Made by a program: the position numbers and the translations under genes. 52,184 nt of DNA, taken from the NCBI GenBank assembly GCA_021850365.1, contig JAJZMH010000029.1, forward strand, positions 1 to 52,184, written 5' to 3'. The DNA comes from a bacterium. GTDB lineage: Bacteria > Patescibacteriota > Saccharimonadia > Saccharimonadales > UBA4665. How positions within the stretch are numbered: the stretch's first letter is position 1; each line of letters begins with the position of its first letter. Shown one piece after another: positions 6,091-18,440 of the stretch. Below the pieces are notes generated by a model that was not told the origin of the DNA, searched no databases, and was given only the letters and a program-made list of their open reading frames with translations.

Positions 6091-6741
6091 ATGGAGAAAG
6101 AATATAACTCTACTAATATTGAATTTGAACGAGATAAAATAGACGAAGCTAGATCTAATAGGTTTAAAATATCTGCGGGATTGCGAATGGTTTCTGCAGG
6201 AATTCAGGCATGGGGTGGAATTACTTCCAATCAAAGTCCTTTAGTTGTTGAAGCAGCTTAAGAGTTGGGGGATAGTTTATTTTTTGCGGCTGGTTCTATC
6301 GAGGCTGGATCTAAAAATAAAAAATATACTCAAAGAGCAAGAAAATATGCCAAAGTATTTGCTGGGACTGCTGCTGTTTTTTCAACTATTGATACATCTT
6401 TGGATATATATAATGATCATGGAACTTTATTCGAATCAATGAAAGGTATTAATTTATATTCTCATCAATATGAAGCTGCCATCGGAGCTCTTGCCATTAA
6501 TTCGGTAGTTTATTTTGTTAACAGAAAAGGACGAAAATCCAGTAATGCTAGTGATAAGTTTGCATGGAGGGATTCAATTAAAGACTCAGTAATACCTGCT
6601 GCAGTGATGGTTTTAGGAGCAACTAAAGCACCTCACCTTGCCGAATATGGTTTTGAATTCTTTGGGGTTGGCTATGGATGGTATAACGTCAAAAAATTAT
6701 TCAGTAGTTGGAAGCCTAAAGCTAAAAAGATTAAAGTTTGA
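6091..6741 (+). pseudogene. CDF-like cation-transporter-domain protein interrupted by an in-frame TAA
   Basis: Reading from the ATG at 6091 gives 56 codons, then TAA at 6259-6261, then the same frame continues openly to TGA at 6739-6741 (160 more codons). Across the stop the sequence reads SPLVVEAA-stop-ELGDSLFFAAGS, which resembles the second helix of cation diffusion facilitator domains (E-S-x-H/Q-x-LGD-S). Downstream hydrophobic segments lie near VFAGTAAVFSTI, AAIGALAINSVVYF and VIPAAVMVLGA, and the C-terminus is basic. The most economical original codon is CAA (Gln), one transition away. No frameshift is present. It may be a recent pseudogene, a sequencing error, a read-through product, or two polypeptides restarting at TTG 6265. 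The downstream TGA is followed closely by the desaturase gene (20 bp). Confidence 0.7.
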
Positions 6742-6761
6742 TATAATAACTTGATCATACT

Positions 6762-7664
6762 ATGAATAAAAACTTTAATATTGATGAGTTTCAAGATCGC
6801 CGTTTATTTCATGAATTAAAAGATGATACAGCTAATCTTATTAATGATCATTATAATAAAGCTAAATCATGGATGCCTATTGATTTAATTCCATTTGAAA
6901 ATCATCAAAATTATAATCCTAAAGATGAATGGGATCAATCGATATATCCCCTATGTGAAGGAGTTCGAAGTTCGTTATTTGTTAATCTATTAACAGAGGA
7001 TAATTTACCCTATTATACAAATACAATTAAAGCAATATCTGCTAAAGATCATCCTTTTAATGAATGGATTAATAGGTGGACTGCTGAAGAAGCTAGACAT
7101 TCTGAAGTAATAAGAGGATGGGTTCATGCATCCGGTGCTCTTGATCCTAGAATGTTAGAAAGTGCTAGAATGGCACAAATGACAAAAGCTGAAGTTCCTG
7201 AATACGATAGTTTTTCAGAAATAATTGTCTATACATCATTACAGGAATTAGCTACTAAAGTTGCTCATAGTAATACAGGTAAATTCTTAAAAGAATTAGG
7301 TGGTGATAAGGTTATGGCAAGAGTTGCTGGTGATGAAGTTTTACACCATAGTTTTTATAGTAATTTAGCAAAAGTAGCATTTGAAATCAATCCAGAGTTA
7401 ATGTTATTGGCTACAGCTAATGTTATAACATCTTTTAAGATGCCTGGAACAGGAATTGAAAACTTTAATCAGCACGCTAAGGCAATCGCTAAAGAAGGTA
7501 TATATGATTTTTCTAAGTTTTTAAAATTGGTGATTGAACCTACATTAGATAAATGGAGTTATAAAGAAATAACTATTGAGACAGAAGTATCAGAGAATGC
7601 AATTATTAAAATTAATAAGCATTTAAATACACTGCAAAAAATAAGTAGAAGAAATAATAGGTAA
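6762..7664 (+). CDS. Acyl-ACP desaturase (FA_desaturase_2, ferritin-like diiron)
   Basis: 300-residue soluble diiron enzyme that would introduce a double bond into an acyl chain carried by ACP, using O2 and reduced ferredoxin. The metal ligands follow the ferritin-like pattern: E79 in LLTEDNLPYY, E110 and H113 in AEEARH, a third Glu in TSLQELATK and the E-x2-H of GDEVLHH. Length is somewhat shorter than plant and mycobacterial homologues (about 330-360) but the core is complete. A TATAAT at 6742-6747 ends 14 bp before the ATG. Its presence implies access to oxygen and unsaturated lipids, in line with the NDH-2 and lactate dehydrogenase genes nearby. It is the last chromosomal gene before the integrated element. 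Confidence 0.85.
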   Translation: MNKNFNIDEFQDRRLFHELKDDTANLINDHYNKAKSWMPIDLIPFENHQNYNPKDEWDQSIYPLCEGVRSSLFVNLLTEDNLPYYTNTIKAISAKDHPFNEWINRWTAEEARHSEVIRGWVHASGALDPRMLESARMAQMTKAEVPEYDSFSEIIVYTSLQELATKVAHSNTGKFLKELGGDKVMARVAGDEVLHHSFYSNLAKVAFEINPELMLLATANVITSFKMPGTGIENFNQHAKAIAKEGIYDFSKFLKLVIEPTLDKWSYKEITIETEVSENAIIKINKHLNTLQKISRRNNR

Positions 7665-7792: not shown

Positions 7793-8254
7793 ATGATTAA
7801 TTTCTTTAAAAACAATAAAGATTGTTTAGAATCTACACTTGATACGAAGTTATATAATCAAGACACTTTCTATAAAGTTTTCATTAGAGACCTAAAGAGG
7901 GCTAGAAATGAAGTTATTATTGAGAGTCCTTTTGTAACCGTTAAGAGACTAGAGACGTTTTTACCAATTTTTAAGGCTCTTGTAAATTCTAATGTTAAAG
8001 TAATAATACATACTAAAGATCCGTACGAATTAGATGATTATTTAAAAGACGAATTATATAAGGGTTTATCTTCCCTGCTCGGCTTAAAGGTTCAAGTTAT
8101 TTTTATTAAAGGATTACATCGCAAAATTACAGTTATTGACAGAGAAATACTCTATGAGGGGAGCTTAAATATATTATCTCAGAATAATTCTATTGAAATG
8201 ATGAGGAGGATTAAATCGACCACATTAAGTCGGGGATTGATTAGTTCTTTATAA
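7793..8254 (+). CDS. PLD-superfamily nuclease-like protein with one HKD motif
   Basis: 153 residues with a single HxKxxxxD motif (H109, K111, D116 in HRKITVID) followed by the conserved GS of YEGSLNILSQ. Single-HKD members such as the Nuc endonuclease of plasmid pKM101 work as homodimers, and this block also resembles PLD domains found on DEAD/DEAH helicases. The N-terminal part (FIRDLKRARNEVIIESPFVT) matches the start of that fold. A good SD (AAGGAG) lies 7 bp upstream of the ATG. It is the first gene inside the left end of the element. In the circular form it would sit directly downstream of the recombinase and a short ORF, overlapping that ORF by ATGATTAA. DNA cleavage in transfer or defence is an inference. 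Confidence 0.7.
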   Translation: MINFFKNNKDCLESTLDTKLYNQDTFYKVFIRDLKRARNEVIIESPFVTVKRLETFLPIFKALVNSNVKVIIHTKDPYELDDYLKDELYKGLSSLLGLKVQVIFIKGLHRKITVIDREILYEGSLNILSQNNSIEMMRRIKSTTLSRGLISSL

Positions 8255-8265
8255 ATAGTAGATTA

Positions 8266-9138
8266 TTATTTTGGAAAGTAATTTGAAAATTCACTGGACA
8301 TGGAATTAAGTATTTGTAGAGTAGCGATATCAAATTCTTTGATCATAATATTTAATATGGATTTATATGTTAGAAATGCTTTTTTAAGTAAAATATAGGC
8401 TAATGAGGGATCACCATTTACATTTTTTATAATTCTTGAAGGCTCGTGCTTTTCGGTTTCGAATAATATGGTGTTAATATCGCTATGAGCGAGATCGCAT
8501 AAGTATTTGTAATCCAATAAATATTCATCTCGTGTAGTTCCTTGCAGGCCGGACTGTTCATAATAATAGTCTATAAGTTTACACTTGTCTGAAATACTCA
8601 TAGCTTTTTCTGTATTTATATATACTTTTTTTGGTTTTTGTAAGTATTCAGTTATTTTATCCCAATTTATTTTTTTAGATATTTCATTCTTTTTATTTTT
8701 AAAGCGTTTTAGTTCATTTTCTAATTTTGTTACATTCAATTTCATGTCATTTTTATACTTTTCTGATGTTTTAAGCTGATTTTTAATTAGTTTTATTCGT
8801 TCAATTGCTGAATCCCTTAAAACAATAAATGAAAAATTAATATCGGCTGGAATTAAGGTTACAAGTTTAAGATTTATTTCAATTTCAAGAAGACTTCTGA
8901 CTTGAAGAGAAGTTGAAAGAACTATGGATTTATTTTTACTTAAAATTAATCTGTTTATTGCGTCAAAATGCGCGACAGCTTGGTTTAAAAGAACTAAAAT
9001 AACTTTGTTTTTTGGATCATCTTGTTCGGGGGTGTAGACTGTTTTGTATAAATTAATTCCAAATGAAGATAAATCGTCAAATAATAATTTAATTTTTTCG
9101 TAGTTCTGTATTAGGTAAGATTCTTCGCCTATTTGCAT
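8266..9138 (-). CDS. DUF5677-like / HEPN-like protein of unknown function
   Basis: 290 residues, mostly predicted alpha-helical. The segment LSTSLQVRSLLEIEINLKL in the first third resembles the R-S-x-x-E core of DUF5677-type proteins, followed by a charged coiled-coil stretch (about residues 110-160, rich in Lys/Glu/Asn) and a helical C-terminus. A HEPN-type RNase role would be compatible with the helical make-up but no RxxxxH motif can be pointed to with certainty. It is the third gene of a tight minus-strand cassette: XRE repressor (9588), 76-residue protein, then this gene after a 3-bp gap. Such repressor-headed accessory cassettes often encode defence or toxin-antitoxin functions; here that is only an inference. 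Confidence 0.5.
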   Translation of the reverse strand: MQIGEESYLIQNYEKIKLLFDDLSSFGINLYKTVYTPEQDDPKNKVILVLLNQAVAHFDAINRLILSKNKSIVLSTSLQVRSLLEIEINLKLVTLIPADINFSFIVLRDSAIERIKLIKNQLKTSEKYKNDMKLNVTKLENELKRFKNKKNEISKKINWDKITEYLQKPKKVYINTEKAMSISDKCKLIDYYYEQSGLQGTTRDEYLLDYKYLCDLAHSDINTILFETEKHEPSRIIKNVNGDPSLAYILLKKAFLTYKSILNIMIKEFDIATLQILNSMSSEFSNYFPK

Positions 9139-9141
9139 TTA

Positions 9142-9372
9142 TTATTTATTTACAATCGTAATCTTCTTGGCTTTTTTGGGCACGAGTAATGGTTTTCTTC
9201 TAGCGTTTTCCTCAAAATGAATAAGATAAAAATCTCCCTCGTCAGATATGGAAATAACGTTACCGTGCTGAATTACTTTATCTCCCATTAACATTTTTGT
9301 TCCAACTTTTGCATTCCAAATATGGTTTATTCCTTTATAATCAGGATGTTGGTATGTAATCTGTTTGATCAT
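9142..9372 (-). CDS. Small basic protein of unknown function (76 aa)
   Basis: 76 residues, beta-rich and lysine-rich at the C-terminus (VPKKAKKITIVNK). The middle (GDKVIQHGNVISISDEGDFY) looks like an SH3/KOW-style small barrel with alternating hydrophobic residues; no family is recognised. AAAGGA lies 7 bp before the ATG, a good ribosome site. It follows the XRE gene by 12 bp and precedes the DUF5677-like gene by 3 bp, so the three are cotranscribed. It could be an antitoxin-like or nucleic-acid-binding partner of the downstream protein. Confidence 0.6.
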   Translation of the reverse strand: MIKQITYQHPDYKGINHIWNAKVGTKMLMGDKVIQHGNVISISDEGDFYLIHFEENARRKPLLVPKKAKKITIVNK

Positions 9373-9384
9373 TAAGCTATCCTT

Positions 9385-9588
9385 TCATGTGGGTATATTA
9401 TCTATATTTAGATCTAATATTTTGGCTAGTTTTTTAATAGTTGCAAATGATGGACTTTGTTCATCTCTTTCTAGTTTAGCGTAGGTGTTTGGATGGATAC
9501 TTGCTCTATTCGCAACTTCAATTTGAGTAAGATTTTTAGCTATTCTTGCCTTTTTTAGAATTTGACCGGTGGTATTATTGGTTCCCAT
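9385..9588 (-). CDS. XRE-family HTH transcriptional regulator
   Basis: 67-residue Cro/CI-type regulator consisting almost only of the five-helix HTH domain: ILKKARIAKNLTQIEVANRA for helices 1-2 and IHPNTYAKLERDEQSPS for the recognition helix and the typical ER-x-xxxPS turn. It heads a three-gene minus-strand cassette and probably represses its own promoter; an 18-bp inverted repeat (CTATC-N8-GATAG) sits at 9601-9618, 13 bp upstream of its start codon. The divergent coupling-ATPase gene starts 92 bp away and could share control. Confidence 0.85.
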   Translation of the reverse strand: MGTNNTTGQILKKARIAKNLTQIEVANRASIHPNTYAKLERDEQSPSFATIKKLAKILDLNIDNIPT

Positions 9589-9600
9589 TATATGCTTATT

Positions 9601-9618
9601 CTATCACTCATCGGATAG
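9601..9618. promoter_or_regulatory. Candidate XRE operator (inverted repeat)
   Basis: CTATC at 9601-9605 and GATAG at 9614-9618 form a perfect 5-bp inverted repeat with an 8-bp centre in the divergent region between the XRE gene and the VirD4-like gene. On the minus strand it overlaps the likely -10 region of the XRE gene (TAGAAT). Confidence 0.35.
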
Positions 9619-9680
9619 TTTGTTAATATCTGATTGTAAAATGCTAGGTATTTAACTAGAATTATCTTAGAGGTATTAGG

Positions 9681-12152
9681 ATGATCCTAGCTAGCTTAAA
9701 CCTATTTCAAAAGTTGTTTGGTACTTCTACTTCTAGTGTGGTTATTACATTTGTTCTACTAATCTTTATTATTGTTTTTATATTGCCGATTGTTCTGAGG
9801 GTTTTAAATCCAGTTTATGAGTTTATTTTACGCTTTATTAATATCTTGTTTGTTAAAAATAATGAGTTTGTTTTCTATAAAATTATCCCTCCTAATGATT
9901 TAGTTGAACTTAATAACGTCGTTGGTGAACTACTCGAGGCTATTCATCATCTTAATCAAACTAAGAAGTTAGTCGACAGGATAGTTTACAAGATTAGACC
10001 TGTTAGTTTTGAAATAGTATCCTCGAAGTACGATGGTATATATTACTTATTTTGCATTCCAAGAGATTATGCAAAACCTCTTAGTGAATTAGCTAAGAGT
10101 TATTTAAAAAACTTTAGGATTGAGAAAGTTAAAGATTATTTAGATAAGTTTCCCGTCAGTAAAGCTGTAGTTTATGAAGTTATTTTAAGTAAGAACAAGT
10201 ATAGGCGAAGTATTGGTTCGTCTAATAATTTAGACCTATTGATTTCTTCAATGGGTAAGTTAAAAATGGATGAACTGGTTGCCTATCAAGTGGTGGCTTA
10301 CCCTATTCATAATAATGTGAGTTTAATTAATCAAAGAAATGTTCTTGCTAGGCTATTTTATATTGTCAGATTTATTTATATCTTTATTTTTAAACTTTTT
10401 GTTTTTATCTTTAAATTAGTTGTGTCTCTATTGCTAGTTAATGTCGCATCGCCATTAAAGGATAAAGACAGACTTTATACTACACTAAACAAAGAGTTAA
10501 CTTTTAGGATTGGAATTAGGCAACTTGTACTTATTGATAATGACCGGGACCAGAAGAAGTATATTAATCAATTTAAGAGTAGTTTTAGATTACTTGGAGT
10601 TAATCTAGCTAGAAACGTTAGATATATAAGGTCTAGATATGTAGGTTTAGGATTAAAAAATTTTAAACTTAGATTACCCAGATTACTCCGCTACACCGAT
10701 TTAAGTATTAATGAACTTGAGAGCTTATTTAATTTTAATTATGCAGGTAAAAGATCTGATAATAATATCGAAAAGAATTTGACTAAAACTCTATCAGTGA
10801 CTACTTCATCTCGTAAGAAAATTATTGAAAATAAGGTTGATTTATTTCTAGGAAAAAGTAATCACCAGGACGATAAAACTCTCATTGGATTAACCCTAGA
10901 AGAACGAATGAGGCACGTCTTTATTTTAGGGGGAACAGGAAACGGTAAATCTACTATGCTTCTTTATGCTATTAATCAAGATATTGTAGCCGGTAATGGA
11001 GTATGTGTGATTGATCCTAATGGTGATCTAGCCGAACAAGTCCTAGAGAATATTCCCGAAGAAAGGATTAAAGATGTAATTTACTTTAATCCAGACGATA
11101 CTACTTACCCTATTAATATTAATCTGCTAGAAATTGACAAGTCTCTAAAGCCAGAAGAGCTTGAAAAGAGGAAGGAACAGATTAGTGAGAGTGTTATCTC
11201 TGTTTTTAGGAAATTGTTCTCCAAGGATAATAGCGGAGGACATCGAATTGAGTATGTATTAAGAAATACTATTCAGACTGCATTAACTCTAGAATCCCCT
11301 ACTTTATTTACCCTTTTTGATTTACTTGATGATGATAGATATAGAAATAAGGTCGTTAAAGAACTTAAAGACCAGAAACTTAAGAATTTCTGGATTAATG
11401 AATTTGGTCGTGCTGGAGGAATGCAAAAAGTTAAATTAGCGATTGGAGTTACTTCAAAGATTGGTAGATTTAGCTTTTCTCTGCCAACTAAAAGAGTTAT
11501 GGGAAGCTATAAATCAACCATTGATTTCGACGAGATTATTAATCAAAAGAAGATTTTGATATGTAATTTATCTAAGGGTAGAATTGGAGAAGATAATTCA
11601 ATGCTGTTTGGTTCTAGTATTTTGGCTCTTATTCAAATGGCAATTAATAGAAGAGAAAGTATCGAAGAAAGTATCAGAGTTCCTTTTTATTTATATGTTG
11701 ATGAGTTTCAGAATTTTGCAGATATTTCATTCATTCAAATGTTATCTGAAGCTAGAAAATACAGGCTACATTTAGTTATTGCTGAACAATCGTTAAGTCA
11801 ACAGGAAGATAAAAGGCTAAATAATGTAATCCTTGCCAACTGTGGCACTATTGTTTGCTTTAGAACCGGTAGCCCAGAGGACACTAAGGTAATTCAACCT
11901 TTTTTTAGCCCAGAAATCAAGAAGTCGGATATAAATAATCTAGCTAGCTTCAATTTCTTTATCAGGATATTAGCTATTAAGCCTGAATCTCCGATGTCTG
12001 GAGAAACTATTGTTTCTAGGGGTGAGGTTTATAAAGTAAATAAAGAAGCTGTTATTGAAAGTTCTAGAAAATTATATGGGAGAGAATATGTTGAGAATAA
12101 AAAAGTTGAAGATATTAAGGATTATGATGAAATAGTTGGTGTGGACGTATGA
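9681..12152 (+). CDS. VirD4/TraD-like type IV coupling ATPase
   Basis: 823-residue membrane ATPase of the HerA/FtsK-VirD4 group, which would bring DNA to a transfer channel. Seen: an N-terminal hydrophobic segment (about residues 18-40), a second hydrophobic stretch around residues 225-260, Walker A LGGTGNGKST at about residues 415-424, the conserved IDPNGDLAEQ that follows, Walker B LYVDEFQNF at about residue 670 and sensor-type HLVIAEQSLSQQ. The C-terminal part resembles the TraM-recognition/TraG-D region. It is much longer than minimal VirD4. No VirB4, VirB6 or pilin genes accompany it, so it may use a chromosomal or helper type IV apparatus. A HerA-type role in element maintenance is a weaker alternative. 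Confidence 0.8.
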   Translation: MILASLNLFQKLFGTSTSSVVITFVLLIFIIVFILPIVLRVLNPVYEFILRFINILFVKNNEFVFYKIIPPNDLVELNNVVGELLEAIHHLNQTKKLVDRIVYKIRPVSFEIVSSKYDGIYYLFCIPRDYAKPLSELAKSYLKNFRIEKVKDYLDKFPVSKAVVYEVILSKNKYRRSIGSSNNLDLLISSMGKLKMDELVAYQVVAYPIHNNVSLINQRNVLARLFYIVRFIYIFIFKLFVFIFKLVVSLLLVNVASPLKDKDRLYTTLNKELTFRIGIRQLVLIDNDRDQKKYINQFKSSFRLLGVNLARNVRYIRSRYVGLGLKNFKLRLPRLLRYTDLSINELESLFNFNYAGKRSDNNIEKNLTKTLSVTTSSRKKIIENKVDLFLGKSNHQDDKTLIGLTLEERMRHVFILGGTGNGKSTMLLYAINQDIVAGNGVCVIDPNGDLAEQVLENIPEERIKDVIYFNPDDTTYPININLLEIDKSLKPEELEKRKEQISESVISVFRKLFSKDNSGGHRIEYVLRNTIQTALTLESPTLFTLFDLLDDDRYRNKVVKELKDQKLKNFWINEFGRAGGMQKVKLAIGVTSKIGRFSFSLPTKRVMGSYKSTIDFDEIINQKKILICNLSKGRIGEDNSMLFGSSILALIQMAINRRESIEESIRVPFYLYVDEFQNFADISFIQMLSEARKYRLHLVIAEQSLSQQEDKRLNNVILANCGTIVCFRTGSPEDTKVIQPFFSPEIKKSDINNLASFNFFIRILAIKPESPMSGETIVSRGEVYKVNKEAVIESSRKLYGREYVENKKVEDIKDYDEIVGVDV

Positions 12153-12164
12153 AGCCAAGGGTAA

Positions 12165-13259
12165 CTAATATAGAACATTATCTTTATACCCGAATAGTAA
12201 TATATCTGTCTTAAAAAACTCGTCTATTTCAAGTGCTTTACATATACCGTTTACGCTTTTCATGAGATAATCACGGCCAAATTGAATATTTATATCAGGA
12301 ATATCGTGTAAATAAAATAAATGGCAGTTTTCTAATTCTATAGGTGTTGGAGTACCTTTATTATTAAAATTATCCTCTTCGAATTTATAAAATTCCAGAA
12401 AACTTCCATAAATATTAGAAAGGATTTTAGGAAATATATATCCATAAATTTTATAGATTTTTTTTGAGTTCCACGGTTCCAGAATATTGGTATTATTAAC
12501 TAAAGAAACTTCTTCACCTGGATGATAACTTATCCGTGCCCCATATTGTAGATTATTTTTTTGATTTTTTAATTGATATTTATATGGAATTGCTATAAAT
12601 TTTTTATGGATTATTTCGTAAGAATTTAATAAACTGTTAATTTCTAAAAAAAGTTTATTAGTAAAGTTTTTATAATATAATTTTTCTGATTTTTCATCAC
12701 TAAAATTTGGTAGATTTAGTTCAAGGGTAAACGATTTTTGAAATTTTTTATTTATTATACTCTCATAATCTAATCTTATTGAGATATCTTTGAAGATATT
12801 TTTACACTCATTTGGATGTTTAACTGATCCATAGTGCTTTTTTCCATTAATCACAAATACTAAATCATATATTGGTTGATTTTTTTTCGGAAAGCTTATT
12901 GTGTCAACCTTGGTTTGATCCATAGAGTAAAGACCATCTTTTAATATATTGTCACAAACACGAATTTGAGCAATTCTATCATTCATTTTGGAATTATCGC
13001 TTAAATTATCTCTGACCTCGCTCATTACACTCTCAAATCCTGGAACGTCTTTAACTCTTCGAAAAAGATCTACATAATCTCGTTTAACTAGATATATCCA
13101 TTTATCTTGAGATAAATATAATATCCATGGATGATCCAAAAAATTTGTTACATTATTAATTAACATTTCTCCTTTTTTGCCGAAGTATGCATCTAATCCT
13201 ATTTTGTAATAATTTTTTAGACTATTTTTTCGTAATTGTTTTATTTTGTCTTCATCCAT
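12165..13259 (-). CDS. Unknown protein divergent from the LexA-methyltransferase fusion
   Basis: 364 residues, no family recognised. It starts 78 bp from, and divergent to, the LexA-methyltransferase gene, so the two share a regulatory region containing a CGTA-TTAT-TACG palindrome. AAAGGA lies 6 bp upstream of the ATG. Residues 130-147 read PIYDLVFVINGKKHYGSVK, which has the spacing of a PD-(D/E)XK nuclease core (D132, then S145-V-K147) but with Ser in place of the usual acidic residue, so a nuclease role is only a weak possibility. The remaining sequence is mixed alpha/beta and rich in Lys, Asn and Tyr. It could be a second restriction or accessory protein of this module. Confidence 0.6.
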   Translation of the reverse strand: MDEDKIKQLRKNSLKNYYKIGLDAYFGKKGEMLINNVTNFLDHPWILYLSQDKWIYLVKRDYVDLFRRVKDVPGFESVMSEVRDNLSDNSKMNDRIAQIRVCDNILKDGLYSMDQTKVDTISFPKKNQPIYDLVFVINGKKHYGSVKHPNECKNIFKDISIRLDYESIINKKFQKSFTLELNLPNFSDEKSEKLYYKNFTNKLFLEINSLLNSYEIIHKKFIAIPYKYQLKNQKNNLQYGARISYHPGEEVSLVNNTNILEPWNSKKIYKIYGYIFPKILSNIYGSFLEFYKFEEDNFNNKGTPTPIELENCHLFYLHDIPDINIQFGRDYLMKSVNGICKALEIDEFFKTDILLFGYKDNVLY

Positions 13260-13301
13260 AGATGTTCCTTTTCTATAAATTTTAATATTTATTAAAAACG
13301 C

Positions 13302-13330
13302 TTCACTTTTCGTATTATTACGTATATACT
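13302..13330 (+). promoter_or_regulatory. Promoter with palindromic operator in its spacer
   Basis: TTCACT (13302-13307), 17-bp spacer, TATACT (13325-13330). The perfect palindrome CGTA-TTAT-TACG fills 13311-13322 of the spacer, a position where a bound repressor would block RNA polymerase. The ATG at 13338 lies 7 bp after the -10, so the mRNA would be leaderless. Autorepression by the LexA-type domain is an inference. Confidence 0.55.
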
Positions 13331-13337
13331 ATTATAT

Positions 13338-14897
13338 ATGATTACTTTAAAACAGAGTAAAATACTCAACATTATAAAAAATTACGTAGAACAGAACGGT
13401 ATTCCACCAACCTTAAAACAAATTTCTAGTATTTCGGGCATTAAATCTCTTTCTTCCATCCATAGAATGATCAATGAACTCGTTCAAAACGGATATTTAA
13501 GTCGAGATAATAAATATGGAAATTTAAATATTAAGAGTAAAGATGTACGATTCTTTCATATTCCTATTTTGGGAAATATTGCAGCTGGGTATCCAATCGA
13601 GGCAATTGAAGATACACAGCCCAAGACTATAGAAATCAATACCCCAAATAATACTGATTACTATGCTTTGCGAGTTCAAGGCGATAGCATGATAGATGAA
13701 GGTATTTTTGACGGAGATATAGTAGTTATTAAGAAACAATCTACGGCATATAACGGTCAAACGGTAGTTGCTATAATTGACGATAACTCTGCGACTTTAA
13801 AGAAAATATATAAGGAAAAGGATCGGTTTAGATTACAACCCTCTAATCAATCATTATTACCCTTGTTTCGCAAAGAAGTTGAAATTCGGGGTGTTGTATG
13901 GAAAATTATTAGAAACTTCGACAATGAAACTTTTGATCAAAAAATCAAAATTTACAAAACTATTGATCTTTTTGCCGGAGTTGGTGGTTTAAGGCTTGGT
14001 TTTGAAAAATTTGGGTTTAGGACTGTATTTGCCAATGATTTTGATAAAGCTTGTAAGGTAACGTATGATTTAAATTTTAAGAATTCTAAGATGATCTTAG
14101 AGGATATCTCAAAGATTGCTGTTAATGATGTACCCGATTTTGATTTCTTAATTGCAGGATTTCCTTGCCAAGCATTTTCAATAGCTGGTTATCGGCAAGG
14201 TTTTGCCGACCCTCGTGGTAGAGGAAATTTATTTTTTGATATCGTTAGGATTATTAAGGCCAAGAAACCAGAAGGTTTCTTGCTAGAGAATGTTAAAAAT
14301 CTGCAATCACATGATAATGGTAAAACGTTTGAAGTTATTTCTAATACTCTTGTCGATTTGGGATATCATATAAAAGTAAAAGTGTTAAATTCTATGGATT
14401 ATGGTAATATCCCTCAAAATAGAGAACGAATTTATATTGTGGGATTTAAGGATCCCATTAAGGCAGAAGCATTTGAATTCCCCGAAAAGATAACACTAAA
14501 GAAAGAAATTACCGATCTATTGGATTCTACTGTACCAGAGAAATATTATTATAATAATAAACCACTCTATAATCGTATTAAAGACGATATCAAAGATGAG
14601 GGGAAAGTTTATCAATGGAGAAGACAGTATGTAAGAGAAAATAAAAAAGGTGTATCCCCTACCCTAACGGCCAATATGGGAACTGGTGGGCATAATGTAC
14701 CAATCATCAAAGATCAGTTCGGAATAAGGAAACTTACCCCTAGAGAATGTTTTAGGTTACAGGGATTCCCTGATACATATATGCTACCTGATAATCTAGG
14801 CGATTCAGCTCTTTATAAACAAGCGGGAAATTCGGTAACTGTACCAGTGATTGAGAGGATTGCTGATAAAATTTATCAAGTAATGTGTAGTTATTAG
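13338..14897 (+). CDS. LexA repressor (S24 peptidase) fused to C5-cytosine DNA methyltransferase
   Basis: 519 residues with two complete proteins in one frame. Residues 1-65 are a LexA-type winged HTH (GIPPTLKQIS, then SLSSIHRMINELVQNGYL). Residues 74-190 are the S24 autoprotease: cleavage dipeptide A83-G84 in GNIAAGYPIEA, nucleophile S117 in QGDSMIDEG and general base K155 in SATLKK. From residue 205 follows a C5 methyltransferase: motif I TIDLFAGVGGLRLGF, motif IV GFPCQAFS with nucleophile C277, motif VI LLENVKNL, motif VIII QNRERIYIVGF, motif IX RECFRLQGFP and motif X QAGNSVTVPV. Nothing essential is missing. RecA-stimulated cleavage would separate the DNA-binding domain (1-83) from peptidase plus methyltransferase. 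A convergent candidate restriction gene overlaps its end by 4 bp. Confidence 0.92.
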   Translation: MITLKQSKILNIIKNYVEQNGIPPTLKQISSISGIKSLSSIHRMINELVQNGYLSRDNKYGNLNIKSKDVRFFHIPILGNIAAGYPIEAIEDTQPKTIEINTPNNTDYYALRVQGDSMIDEGIFDGDIVVIKKQSTAYNGQTVVAIIDDNSATLKKIYKEKDRFRLQPSNQSLLPLFRKEVEIRGVVWKIIRNFDNETFDQKIKIYKTIDLFAGVGGLRLGFEKFGFRTVFANDFDKACKVTYDLNFKNSKMILEDISKIAVNDVPDFDFLIAGFPCQAFSIAGYRQGFADPRGRGNLFFDIVRIIKAKKPEGFLLENVKNLQSHDNGKTFEVISNTLVDLGYHIKVKVLNSMDYGNIPQNRERIYIVGFKDPIKAEAFEFPEKITLKKEITDLLDSTVPEKYYYNNKPLYNRIKDDIKDEGKVYQWRRQYVRENKKGVSPTLTANMGTGGHNVPIIKDQFGIRKLTPRECFRLQGFPDTYMLPDNLGDSALYKQAGNSVTVPVIERIADKIYQVMCSY

Positions 14898-15727
14898 TCG
14901 AATGTAACTTTCGTTTTTGAGATATCATCAATTCTTTTTTGTATAAAATTAAAATCAACCATTGTATCTCGTAAATTTATGTTCTTAGGATTAAACGTCG
15001 TAGTGATTTTAATAGCTTTATTATTATCTATCCAGAATTTTGGTCTTAATCTTAGTTCGAGTCTTTTCTTAGATTTATAAATTTTAGTATTTCCATAATT
15101 TGTATCTATGAAATTTTTTAAGAATAATGATGTCTCGGTTGCTCGGTCAATTTCTACCTTATTAATTTTGTTAATGTCTAATCGTGCACCACAAAGATAA
15201 AAACTCGCTTCGTTATTAGAAGATAAATTTGGCCTTAATACAAAGAAATAGATAATATCTTTTAATTTATAATCAGTTGAAGCTTTTTTAATTTTTTCTT
15301 TATATAAATTAAGCCAGGAATTCATTATCTGCACGTAAGCCTTTTGTTCAAATAAAGTATCTAATGATTTTCCTGTACCGATAAACTTTTGTCCTAATGA
15401 TGCTTCGCCACTTGTTGTATCAGATGGTTTCCCGTCTATATTTATATCCATATTTAACATCTTTAAATCTGCACCCCATTTTTTTGATTCACTATAAATA
15501 TCTATTGGATAGGAGCCTGAACCGATTGGTTTTACGTTAAGCGCTTGTGTAAACCACTGTTCAATATGCTCCTTGGGTACTTGGATCGGCAAACTTTTTT
15601 GTCCAACAATTGATTCAGGTTGCGCAATTAATGATTTTAAAATGAAATATTCTATTATTTTCTTGGCTTTTTCATCTAAAAAGGAGTTTAGGTCGTCAAA
15701 TTCCATTGGGTTTATTACGTAGTTCAT
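14894..15727 (-). CDS. Candidate type II restriction endonuclease
   Basis: 277 residues. Convergent with the cytosine methyltransferase, with stop codons overlapping by 4 bp, the usual neighbourhood of a cognate restriction enzyme. Residues 70-90 (SGSYPIDIYSESKKWGADLK) fit a PD-(D/E)XK catalytic core: P74-I-D76, then D87-L-K89. A conserved-looking SGEASLGQKFIGTG block follows, and the C-terminal half is mixed beta/alpha, including LRLRPKFWIDN. I do not recognise a named restriction family, and the recognition sequence cannot be predicted. It has its own upstream region of 146 bp (15728-15873) with no visible ORF. Timing after entry into a new host would have to be set relative to the LexA-controlled methyltransferase. 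Confidence 0.6.
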   Translation of the reverse strand: MNYVINPMEFDDLNSFLDEKAKKIIEYFILKSLIAQPESIVGQKSLPIQVPKEHIEQWFTQALNVKPIGSGSYPIDIYSESKKWGADLKMLNMDINIDGKPSDTTSGEASLGQKFIGTGKSLDTLFEQKAYVQIMNSWLNLYKEKIKKASTDYKLKDIIYFFVLRPNLSSNNEASFYLCGARLDINKINKVEIDRATETSLFLKNFIDTNYGNTKIYKSKKRLELRLRPKFWIDNNKAIKITTTFNPKNINLRDTMVDFNFIQKRIDDISKTKVTFD

Positions 15728-15873
15728 TGATTATATTGTATTGATTTATAGAACGATTGTCTATTTAGGGATGAAACCTTATATTTTCAAGTAAATAGTA
15801 TTGTTTATTAATTCGATATTATTATTGAGAATTATTAAATATAAATGTTTTATTTTATTTCGAATATAAATAG

Positions 15874-16521
15874 TTAGTCGATTATTTTTATTATTCGTAG
15901 ATCTGCATACTGATCCATAATATTTTGCAATAATCTTGTTAATGAAGTTTTAGTATAAAAAATCATTAAATCATTAAAATCATTAGAATTTATTATATTT
16001 TGTATATAGGTGCTAACATTCCTATTCGCTAAAGTTTTAGATATATAGATTATTCCTGTTTGTTCTCTATTCGGTTTAATCATTAAGATGTCTAACTTAT
16101 GTTTATTAGTAAGTTCTGTTTTAGTAATAAATCTATATTTATCATCGTACTTATTTTTTAATTCCTGAAATATATCGAATACTTTAATATGATGGTTGAT
16201 TAAGGTCTGGCTACTTATTTTATTCCTATAATGGATGAATATAGCATCGTGGTTGAAATAGGTTTGAGTTTTTAGAAAGGCTAGACTTTTTGGACGAAGA
16301 TAATAAATTGCCGGATCTCCCTTAAGTTTATAGCTTTTGTCGTAAAATCGGCCAAGATAATCTTGATCTAAAAGAATTCTAAGCCTTTCATTGGCAACTC
16401 GTGGATTAACGTTAAGGTACTTTGCAAACTGTCTACTATTAATGTATCTAAATTTATATAAAAGGTTGATTATGTGAATTTGATTCTTATTTAGAGGTCT
16501 TCTGTATTTAACTACACTCAT
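15874..16521 (-). CDS. Replication-relaxation-family wHTH protein
   Basis: About 215 residues from the ATG at 16521. An in-frame ATG at 16584 would add 21 hydrophobic residues rich in Ile, Leu and Tyr that do not fit a DNA-binding protein, so the internal start is preferred. The N-terminus is a winged helix (NKNQIHIINLLYKFRYINSR, then NPRVANERLRILLDQDYLGR), followed by PAIYYLRPKSLAFL, the layout of the replication-relaxation family seen on plasmids and integrative elements. The C-terminal alpha/beta part (DKYRFITKTELTNKHKLDIL) resembles a degenerate nuclease fold. With the coupling ATPase it may nick or recognise the element's transfer or replication origin; that is inferred from the family. 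It is divergent from the recombinase operon. Confidence 0.65.
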   Translation of the reverse strand: MSVVKYRRPLNKNQIHIINLLYKFRYINSRQFAKYLNVNPRVANERLRILLDQDYLGRFYDKSYKLKGDPAIYYLRPKSLAFLKTQTYFNHDAIFIHYRNKISSQTLINHHIKVFDIFQELKNKYDDKYRFITKTELTNKHKLDILMIKPNREQTGIIYISKTLANRNVSTYIQNIINSNDFNDLMIFYTKTSLTRLLQNIMDQYADLRIIKIID

Positions 16522-16581
16522 AATATATATAAAGTATAAAACAAATATTTTTAATATATACAGAGTAAAAATTAAGTTATA

Positions 16582-16661
16582 CATATCCTAACGAAAAGAT
16601 GTTTATATTACACTAGAACTATCTGCCAAAGGATAGTATAATTATCCTTGTAAGGATATGT
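16582..16661. promoter_or_regulatory. Divergent control region with repeated AGGATA half-sites
   Basis: Between the wHTH gene and the recombinase operon there is a perfect 7-bp inverted repeat AAGGATA-N7-TATCCTT (16629-16649) whose centre contains TATAAT (16637-16642). A flanking pair, ACATATCCT at 16582-16590 and AGGATATGT at 16653-16661, forms a second, wider inverted repeat. Four half-sites around one -10 hexamer suggest repression of both transcription directions. Confidence 0.5.
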
Positions 16662-16665
16662 AGCT

Positions 16666-16788
16666 ATGGAAGATCTTAAATCTATTCGAGAGGGTAACGA
16701 TATAAATCGTGAATTAGAATCAGTTCTAGAAGAGCTTTTAGATATTTATTTAATACTACTAGATATTCAACAAACAACTGTGGAGTAA
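16666..16788 (+). CDS. 40-residue acidic peptide upstream of the recombinase
   Basis: ATG at 16666, TAA at 16786-16788, 2 bp before the recombinase ATG. The product is acidic and amphipathic (ELESVLEELLDIYLILLDI), probably a single helix or coiled coil. The recombinase ribosome site (GTGGAG) lies within its last codons, so the two are translationally coupled. A TATAAT at 16637-16642 is correctly placed for their promoter. A directionality factor or inhibitor of the recombinase is possible but not shown. It lies just downstream of the AGGATA repeat array, so its expression would be under the same control. Confidence 0.6.
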   Translation: MEDLKSIREGNDINRELESVLEELLDIYLILLDIQQTTVE

Positions 16789-16790
16789 CT

Positions 16791-18278
16791 ATGAATAATC
16801 AAAAATTAAATACTGTAATCCTAGCTAGAGTATCTTCTAAGTCCCAGGAAGAAGAAGGATATTCGCTTGATTCACAGCTTAAATTGCTTTCGTTATATTG
16901 TAACCAGCATGATCTAAATGTCATTAAGGTTTTTAAAATTGCCGAAACTGCTTCTAGAGATCAAGGCAGAAAAGTATTTAAGGAGCTAATGCAATTTATG
17001 ATAGAAGAAAGCGTTTATCATTTAGTGGTTGAAAAAACAGATCGTTTTACTAGAAATTTTAAGGATGCAGTAGTAATTGATGATTGGTTAGAGGCAAACG
17101 AAGATCGCAGGCTCCATGCTGTTAAAGAAAATATCTTATTACATAAAAATGCTAAATCTGATGTTAAATTCATTTGGAATATAAACGTATCAATTGCTAA
17201 AAAATATACAGACAATTTACGTGAAGAAGCTATGAAGGGTTGGAAAGAAAAATTAGCCCAAGGATGGCTTCCTGGCTTCCCTCCTCCAGGGTATCAGACT
17301 GTTAGTGAGAATCATAAGAAGATTCATGTCCCAAATATTCAGACGAAGGATATTATGATAGATGCCTTTAAAACCTATTTACTGCCAGGCCAGACCATTA
17401 AGACGATTACCGAAAAACTAAACAAGGCAGGTCTTCGAACTAGACACAATAAGCCTTATTCTAAAAGTCACGTAGCAAGGATATTAAAAAATCCGTTTTA
17501 TATTGGAATTAACCATTTTAATGGGGTAGATTATCCTGGGGCTCAAGAAAAATTAATATCTGAAAAGTTATTTTATAAGGTTCAGCTAAAGATGAATAGT
17601 GGTCAGACAAAAGAATATCAAAAACATCATTGTCCCTATCAAGGAATGATTAGATGTATGGATTGTAACTCACTTGTTACGTGGCAACTCCAAAAAGGTA
17701 GATATTACGGACTTTGTAGACGGCTTAATAGCACCTGTAAGTGCTCACCAGCACTGAAGGAGGAAAATATTGATGATGCCGTTAAAACAGCCCTAAAACA
17801 AGTAGTATGCCCGTATCCTGCTTTAATTAATTGGATAGTTCAAAAACTAGGTGAACTGAATATTAACAAGTCCAAAAACGATGATGACATGAGAGCTAGT
17901 TTAAATAAACAAATACATCATTATCGTCAAATGGACGATAATCTATATGACGATAAATTATCTGGGCTTATAACTATAAAAAAATATCAAATAAAACACC
18001 AGGAGTTTAATAGTAAAATAGAAAATTTAAACAAAGAAATCGATAGTCTTAATATTAATCGTAACTTGGATCTAGATTATAAAATTAAATTAATTGAACT
18101 TAGCCAAAAGGCAGATTTAATATACCAAAATGGCACTGCCGATCAAAAACGCTTAATAATTTCCAAACTTTTTGAAAATCTAACAATGAAAGGAGGTATC
18201 CTATCTATTAAATACAATCAAGTAATGACTATTTTTAGTCAAAAATTAGAGCAATCCATTAATATAATGAAAGGATAA
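16791..18278 (+). CDS. Large serine recombinase (integrase)
   Basis: 495 residues. The resolvase catalytic domain covers about 8-150 with the nucleophile S15 in LARVSSKSQ, R13, and the active-site D84-R85-x2-R88 of EKTDRFTRN. The recombinase domain (about 160-265) contains PPGYQT and VARILKNPFYIGINHF. A zinc ribbon follows with C281, C289, C292, C309 and C316/C318 as possible ligands, then a long coiled coil from about 365 to 430 typical of large serine integrases. It is 87 bp from the tRNA-Gln 3' end, the element boundary, and is therefore the likely integrase of this element. Serine integrases use short crossover cores, so the tRNA target seen here is less usual than for tyrosine integrases. 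Confidence 0.93.
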   Translation: MNNQKLNTVILARVSSKSQEEEGYSLDSQLKLLSLYCNQHDLNVIKVFKIAETASRDQGRKVFKELMQFMIEESVYHLVVEKTDRFTRNFKDAVVIDDWLEANEDRRLHAVKENILLHKNAKSDVKFIWNINVSIAKKYTDNLREEAMKGWKEKLAQGWLPGFPPPGYQTVSENHKKIHVPNIQTKDIMIDAFKTYLLPGQTIKTITEKLNKAGLRTRHNKPYSKSHVARILKNPFYIGINHFNGVDYPGAQEKLISEKLFYKVQLKMNSGQTKEYQKHHCPYQGMIRCMDCNSLVTWQLQKGRYYGLCRRLNSTCKCSPALKEENIDDAVKTALKQVVCPYPALINWIVQKLGELNINKSKNDDDMRASLNKQIHHYRQMDDNLYDDKLSGLITIKKYQIKHQEFNSKIENLNKEIDSLNINRNLDLDYKIKLIELSQKADLIYQNGTADQKRLIISKLFENLTMKGGILSIKYNQVMTIFSQKLEQSINIMKG

Positions 18279-18281
18279 AAT

Positions 18282-18365
18282 ATGACATTCAAAACTGCAA
18301 AAAGTAAAGCTCATAACAGAGATAAAAAAGTTCAATTGAACAAAAATAAGGAGCTTTGGAGCATT
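18282..18365 (+). other. Right half of an ORF that would be completed by excision
   Basis: An ATG at 18282, 3 bp after the recombinase stop, opens 28 lysine-rich codons before the frame enters the tRNA antisense at 18366. In the integrated state the frame continues through the tRNA to TAA and yields a meaningless tRNA translation. Joined at the repeat to 7687, the same frame continues for 37 codons to TAA at 7798-7800, overlapping the PLD start. Confidence 0.45.
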
Positions 18366-18382
18366 TGGCTAGGACGGAGGGA
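18366..18382 (+). repeat. Right attachment repeat: 3' end of the intact tRNA-Gln
   Basis: TGGCTAGGACGGAGGGA, in the same orientation as 7687-7703 with one mismatch. It forms the acceptor end, with CCA, of the functional tRNA gene, so integration preserves the tRNA. Confidence 0.8.
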
Positions 18383-18440
18383 TTCGAACCCCCGAATGCC
18401 AGGACCAAAACCTGGTGCCTTACCACTTGGCGACGTCCTA
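18366..18440 (-). tRNA. trnQ: tRNA-Gln (anticodon TTG)
   Basis: 75 nt including encoded CCA. Acceptor TAGGACG pairs with CGTCCTA, discriminator G. The anticodon stem CCAGG/CCTGG closes the loop TTTTGGT, giving anticodon TTG (reads CAA/CAG). T-arm GGGGGTTCGAATCCC is intact. Its 3' end is the insertion target of the adjacent element. Confidence 0.95.

Follow-up and report, generated by a model that had tools for sequence, protein, structure and literature searches.

A single open reading frame of this genome joins a complete LexA to a complete C5-cytosine DNA methyltransferase. It lies in a stretch of 52,184 nucleotides that was analysed as a whole (the window). LexA is a repressor that cuts itself upon DNA damage. 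With a probability of about 0.7, we read the fusion as a dual-function type II methyltransferase, one that would repress itself via its LexA part, be derepressed by RecA-driven autocleavage and thereby raise the ratio of methyltransferase to restriction enzyme (M:R) in damaged cells. The components of this reading differ in strength. Autorepression of the gene through the LexA part appears well supported; RecA-driven cleavage and the damage response are what we infer from sequence.

The first-pass annotation of this DNA had read a complete LexA and a complete C5 methyltransferase in the frame, and had proposed a search for the three domains concerned. All three matched in the one frame (Table 1), namely LexA_DNA_bind (Pfam, E 1.5e-10), Peptidase_S24 (E 9.4e-26) and DNA_methylase (E 3.5e-96). 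NCBIfam agrees with Pfam. The protein scores 148.2 bits against the lexA equivalog model, for which the cut-off is 110.95, and 346 bits against the dcm model, which is over the curated cut-off. The residues that the annotation had named, A83-G84, S117, K155 and C277, were all exact on a residue check, and further C5 methyltransferase motifs are present (ENV from residue 317 and QNRER at 360). The nearest solved structures are LexA for the N-terminal part and M.HhaI for the methyltransferase part. A structure model of the fusion is confident for the helix-turn-helix (HTH) and the methyltransferase but not for the S24 domain, and therefore no inference was drawn from it on the cleavage loop.

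Table 1. Features of the fusion gene and its surroundings (positions in the window).
Feature	Position	Strand	Remarks
Divergent neighbour	12165..13259	-	364 aa; common operator-bearing intergenic region; no database matches
Promoter-operator block	13300..13337	+	-35-like CTTCAC, CGTA-N6-CGTA direct repeat, -10-like TATACT; -35/-10 by eye
LexA-C5 methyltransferase fusion gene	13338..14897	+	519 aa, ATG start
LexA winged-helix DNA-binding domain, residues 3-58	13344..13511	+	Pfam PF01726, alignment; recognition helix ...SSIHRMINEL
LexA autoprotease domain S24, residues 76-187	13563..13898	+	Pfam PF00717
Cleavage site Ala83-Gly84	13584..13589	+	alignment, residue check
Catalytic Ser117	13686..13688	+	alignment, residue check
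Catalytic Lys155	13800..13802	+	alignment, residue check
C5-cytosine methyltransferase domain, residues 206-513	13953..14876	+	Pfam PF00145, M.HhaI alignment
Methyltransferase nucleophile Cys277 (PCQ)	14166..14168	+	residue check
Convergent partner, probable restriction endonuclease	14894..15727	-	277 aa; stop codons overlap fusion gene
Replic_Relax-family protein	15874..16584	-	probably part of carrying element; Pfam
Large serine recombinase	16791..18278	+	probably part of carrying element; Pfam, NCBIfam
tRNA-Gln(ttg)	18366..18440	-	adjoins element; second RM copy also adjoins a tRNA-Gln

Could the fusion be a product of chance, a frameshift or an assembly error? No stop interrupts the 519 codons of 13338-14897 on reading of the frame, and neither a stop nor a frameshift separates the domains. 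A second copy, 84% identical, is located on another small contig of the same genome (G000:C16:1070-2626), where it keeps the same partner gene, again overlapping at the stop codons, and five other genomes hold full-length orthologues with 48-65% identity. Because of this second copy and these orthologues, all three explanations are ruled out. Between the two copies, dN/dS is 0.044 for the S24 domain, 0.059 for the methyltransferase, 0.165 for the HTH and 0.073 for the restriction partner. Purifying selection acts on every domain of the fusion and is strongest on S24.

A survey for the same architecture in other genomes, also suggested at the outset, found it to be recurrent and not a one-off. 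In a sample of 380 genomes from the window's phylum, at least 20 have fusions, each from a different family. The LexA matches listed fall into two size classes of open frame, ~202-276 aa and ~494-633 aa. The shorter class is ordinary LexA, and every long frame examined consists of LexA, S24 and a DNA methyltransferase. The fused methyltransferases belong to type II and come from three classes: C5, N6/N4 (PF01555) and D12. A control sample comprised 251 genomes of another phylum (Chloroflexi, the phylum of the L009 genome). No open frame of fusion size was present among the ~150 LexAs listed there, the longest being 473 aa. In a tree, the LexA domains of 23 fusions cluster together with only two unfused LexAs inside, and a single clade of fused LexAs is not rejected (p-AU 0.25). 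Downstream of one of the two unfused members, L057, come a C5 methyltransferase in a frame of its own and a HindVP-type restriction enzyme; LexA and methyltransferase are likewise unfused neighbours at L004 and L052.

A phage origin of the fusion was also considered. It was rejected, since 50,697 phage records yielded no fusion of full length and the viral contigs with matches to the methyltransferases have no LexA part. The plasmid matches listed are relatives of the methyltransferase only, and one counted record covers at least 80% of the query.

A fusion of LexA with a methyltransferase did not turn up in a literature search limited to open-access papers, and a review of restriction-modification (RM) biology from 2025 covers regulatory methyltransferases with LexA unmentioned (PMC12707154). 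Within the open-access literature, the architecture is apparently without precedent. It is a novel form of the already known dual-function (regulatory) methyltransferases, and has their make-up of a DNA-binding regulator N-terminal to an RM methyltransferase. M.SsoII, M.EcoRII and M.Ecl18kI likewise combine an N-terminal DNA-binding part and a methyltransferase in one polypeptide, and their HTH represses their own gene from an operator that overlaps the promoter (PMC3874152, PMC3978073, PMC12707154). However, in the M.SsoII group the N-terminal part is short (an HTH region, of 71 residues in M.SsoII itself), whereas the fusion has a whole LexA with autoprotease and cleavage site. Also unlike M.SsoII-type regulators, the design extends over C5, N6/N4 and D12 methyltransferases.

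Two further systems invite comparison. Controller (C) proteins likewise set the timing of M and R at the level of transcription, but as small, separate XRE proteins they lack an autoprotease. In type I restriction alleviation (EcoKI, ClpXP), as proposed here, the balance tips away from self-restriction when DNA is damaged or repaired. There, the restriction complexes are proteolysed (PMC12707154, PMC11109961), whereas the fusion would raise methyltransferase synthesis.

The idea that methylation and repression are joined in one molecule, already put forward by the first-pass annotation, is supported by an operator block in the fusion's own promoter. The CGTA-N6-CGTA repeat (period 10) sits in TTTTCGTATTATTACGTA (13307-13324), between the -35-like and -10-like elements. 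The second copy has a nearly identical promoter block amid flanks that are not alignable. The window's operator is a 10-bp variant with two copies only, and its position agrees with 11-bp repeats of the other fusions. Those repeats come from an unbiased scan of the DNA upstream of the fusions, which covered repeat spacings of 6 to 20 bp. Of 23 fusion promoters, 15 contain a 6-mer that recurs at exactly 11 bp. The expected number is 1.95, none of 200 dinucleotide-preserving shuffles reached 15, and other spacings are near background. The direct repeats lie within the -10 element or against it. Canonical LexA palindromes (GAAC-N4-GTTC) were not found in the fusion promoters. The 11-bp period of the fusion promoters' direct repeat is also that of GTTC-N7-GTTC, the LexA box of alphaproteobacteria (PMC3323433).

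The 11-bp repeat is present in 7 of 20 unfused LexA promoters of the phylum as well. Six unfused LexAs (L070, L064, L065, L072, L075 and L082) have direct repeats of this period with half-sites of the TTCGG/TTTGG type, and a second group, with the recognition helix SKNAVxKLL, is without them. The half-site may depend on residue X of an H-X-H motif in the recognition helix. When X is E or Q, the half-site is ..CGG in nine of nine fusions and in the unfused L038, and TTTAGG in L057. When X is F it is TTTCTA (5/5), and when X is H or Y it is TTTCGA (four cases) or TTTCTA (two). Among unfused LexAs, E tends to go with GG, and K, present in one of them, with GC; the window's LexA has R at this position. 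After correction for relatedness, four independent helix-operator pairs remain, nearly always as predicted (p 0.125), so the proposal that the half-site tracks residue X is suggestive only.

How far does the control exerted by the fusion reach? It shares with SOS LexA the HTH, the S24 domain, the Ala-Gly site and the Ser-Lys dyad. It differs in having a C-terminal methyltransferase, and the fused LexAs group together. A search of the whole genome, allowing up to two mismatches, found the window's operator only before the two fusion genes. In other words, no SOS regulon beyond the fusion's own gene came to light. This argues against a wider regulon, against control of the recombinase and against a link with excision, and the first two were rejected as candidates for the window's genome. 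Since the operator is found only at the fusions' own promoters, the window's fusion is, as far as operator matches tell, a LexA by descent and make-up but not a global SOS LexA.

These observations suggest how the protein might work. In quiet cells, the LexA part would dimerise and place its winged helices on the direct-repeat operator in or against the -10 element, keeping methyltransferase synthesis low. Meanwhile the methyltransferase part, whose activity is presumed from family membership, would, by modification, protect the host genome from the restriction enzyme whose gene is tail to tail with the fusion gene. DNA damage, including cuts by the system's own enzyme at under-methylated sites, would lead to RecA filaments and these to cleavage at A83-G84. 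The HTH would be lost, with the LexA C-terminal domain and methyltransferase piece left whole. Since a cut between residues 83 and 84 releases nothing but the HTH, the methyltransferase is expected to remain attached to the LexA C-terminal domain and active. The promoter would then open and more methyltransferase would be made.

What would happen to the restriction enzyme? LexA operators were not found before the restriction genes, which makes it plausible that damage shifts the balance between the two enzymes. The M:R ratio would rise because a restriction gene without a LexA operator would stay uninduced, and the overlap of the convergent genes might add transcriptional interference against R. 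Repression would be restored as intact protein builds up again. The outcome would be a homeostatic loop with built-in restriction alleviation. A module entering a naive cell would encounter no repressor yet, and methyltransferase would be made first.

That damage leads to cleavage and then to derepression is the reading we consider most likely, because there is an operator block, because the cleavage residues are kept and because the window's genome encodes RecA. In the alignment, Ala-Gly, Ser and Lys are present in 23 of 23 fused LexAs. Unbalanced type II RM activity is known to induce the SOS response (PMC3874152). No complete LexA besides the two fusions was found in the window's genome, which is ~91% complete, and most of the sampled relatives from the same order are without a complete LexA. 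The same genome (G000), in which the only complete LexAs are the fusions, also encodes a 153-aa protein with a LexA-type HTH and no S24, outside an RM context (L061 1336-1797, G000:C35).

A simpler explanation is that the LexA part is a dimeric DNA-binding module that sets the level of the methyltransferase and its timing after entry into a cell, autocleavage being irrelevant there. The operator and the pairing with a restriction gene call for binding only, and HTH-fused methyltransferases that repress their own promoters are established (PMC3874152; PMC12707154), as with M.SsoII and M.EcoRII. Conservation of the Ser and Lys might, in principle, reflect a role in folding or dimerisation instead of cleavage. 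Nevertheless, we consider this explanation unlikely. The cleavage site and the dyad are kept in every one of the 23 fusions, and the S24 domain is the most constrained of all where a plain HTH would suffice.

The first-pass annotation had named the adjacent gene as a restriction enzyme, and this holds in part. Position, conservation alongside the fusion in both copies and a PD-(D/E)xK-like stretch read by eye (YPID...WGADLK) make 14894-15727 a probable restriction enzyme. A family match is the part that did not emerge; Pfam, PADLOC and PHROG gave none, no relatives were found beyond the second copy, and a single-sequence fold model was unusable (pLDDT 31.6). At other loci the assignment comes from known families. 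The next gene is convergent with the fusion in 15 of 17 loci examined, its end lying within ~31 bp and often overlapping, and eight restriction-enzyme families are represented among the partners (NgoFVII, HindIII, EcoRV, ScaI, BglII, MamI, BsaWI and MutH-like). The EcoRV-type partner goes with a D12 methyltransferase. At L100, an unfused LexA of the same kind is tail to tail with an AlwI-type enzyme.

Some loci have additional features. An XRE-type, controller-like frame precedes the restriction gene of L045, and ends resembling such frames were seen by eye before those of L039, L042, L048 and L050. At L055, an NgoFVII-type restriction gene runs in the direction of the fusion instead of converging with it, and is split into two frames (6562-6951 and 6958-7572) by a frameshift or sequencing error. 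A gene for a Vsr-type mismatch endonuclease adjoins the C5 methyltransferase at L054 (4953-5369, Pfam) and, by likeness to that sequence, at L013 (3000-3413). A guess at the specificity of the window's methyltransferase, GCNGC/GCSGC, comes from relatives that adjoin Bsp6I-type and NgoFVII-type enzymes and from the recognition sites of these enzymes. Such sites are not depleted in the window, a result that is uninformative on specificity.

The other side of the operator deserves attention too. LexA has a divergent gene upstream of it at 21 of 24 loci, and the distance between the two is often below 120 bp. A CBASS-like pair, consisting of a SMODS cyclase and a 1TM or Cap15 effector, has this position at L042 (4622-6161), L052 (2107-3955), L057 (153-1428) and L100 (2144-3585), and a ThsB-type TIR protein has it at L044 (4721-5158). 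Because these defences are divergent and the intergenic region is common, one operator may serve two promoters, and the defences are possibly damage-inducible. What if this is the main purpose? Restriction cuts of invaders or phage damage would then act via RecA and LexA cleavage mainly to induce a divergent back-up defence, with the methyltransferase co-induced. The frequency of divergent neighbours and the cyclase-effector and TIR genes speak for this scenario. However, a recognised defence is present at only ~5 loci, and the window's own divergent gene matches no known family. As the principal function we consider it improbable, more so than simple autorepression, although it can also hold alongside a self-repressing methyltransferase.

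The fusion gene itself appears to be carried on a mobile element. Positions 7793-18440 encode a PLD-like protein, a DUF5677 protein, a TraG/VirD4-like ATPase, the RM pair, the Replic_Relax protein, the serine recombinase and tRNA-Gln. The region looks like an integrated element or island; no second copy of the tRNA end, as a flanking direct repeat, was found in the window. Both RM copies are near a tRNA-Gln(ttg) (L058 35-109; window 18366-18440) and have different flanks, which points either to a hotspot of insertion or to the binning of a second strain into the genome. Recombinase-like frames near the fusions of L039 (488-1963), L047 (4789-6231), L048 (6900-8204) and L050 (5354-6640) are of the serine-recombinase type by eye (...YARKS...), a hint of shared mobile carriers. 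The first-pass annotation had raised the possibility that damage, by cleaving the fusion, triggers excision or post-segregational effects, and the recombinases here and near four other fusions, the Replic_Relax protein and the tRNA-Gln would fit, but this is very improbable given that no operator within two mismatches is found at the recombinase, that several fusion loci have no recombinase nearby and that post-segregational effects are common to any RM system and need no LexA.

A long-standing question is how an RM system spares its host while methylation is still catching up with replication or repair. One answer that can be tested is the self-repressing, damage-released methyltransferase. 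In it, the enzyme that protects the genome bears the damage sensor of the cell and would increase its own amount upon breaks; damage, own restriction cuts included, would probably switch on more of it. RM would be tied to the SOS machinery in one polypeptide, and recurrently so in a mostly uncultured phylum. The fusions also provide a ready set of LexA/operator pairs whose specificities are apparently different, and their loci point to CBASS and TIR defences that may be damage-inducible. A broader idea is possible, though doubtful: RM-LexA may be a separate LexA clade that serves the phylum's defence islands as an exchangeable sensor of DNA damage, fused to any class of methyltransferase, insulated by helix-set operators and also driving divergent back-up defences of the CBASS-like and TIR kinds. 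If so, breaks made by the restriction enzyme would both rescue host methylation and arm a second line of defence.
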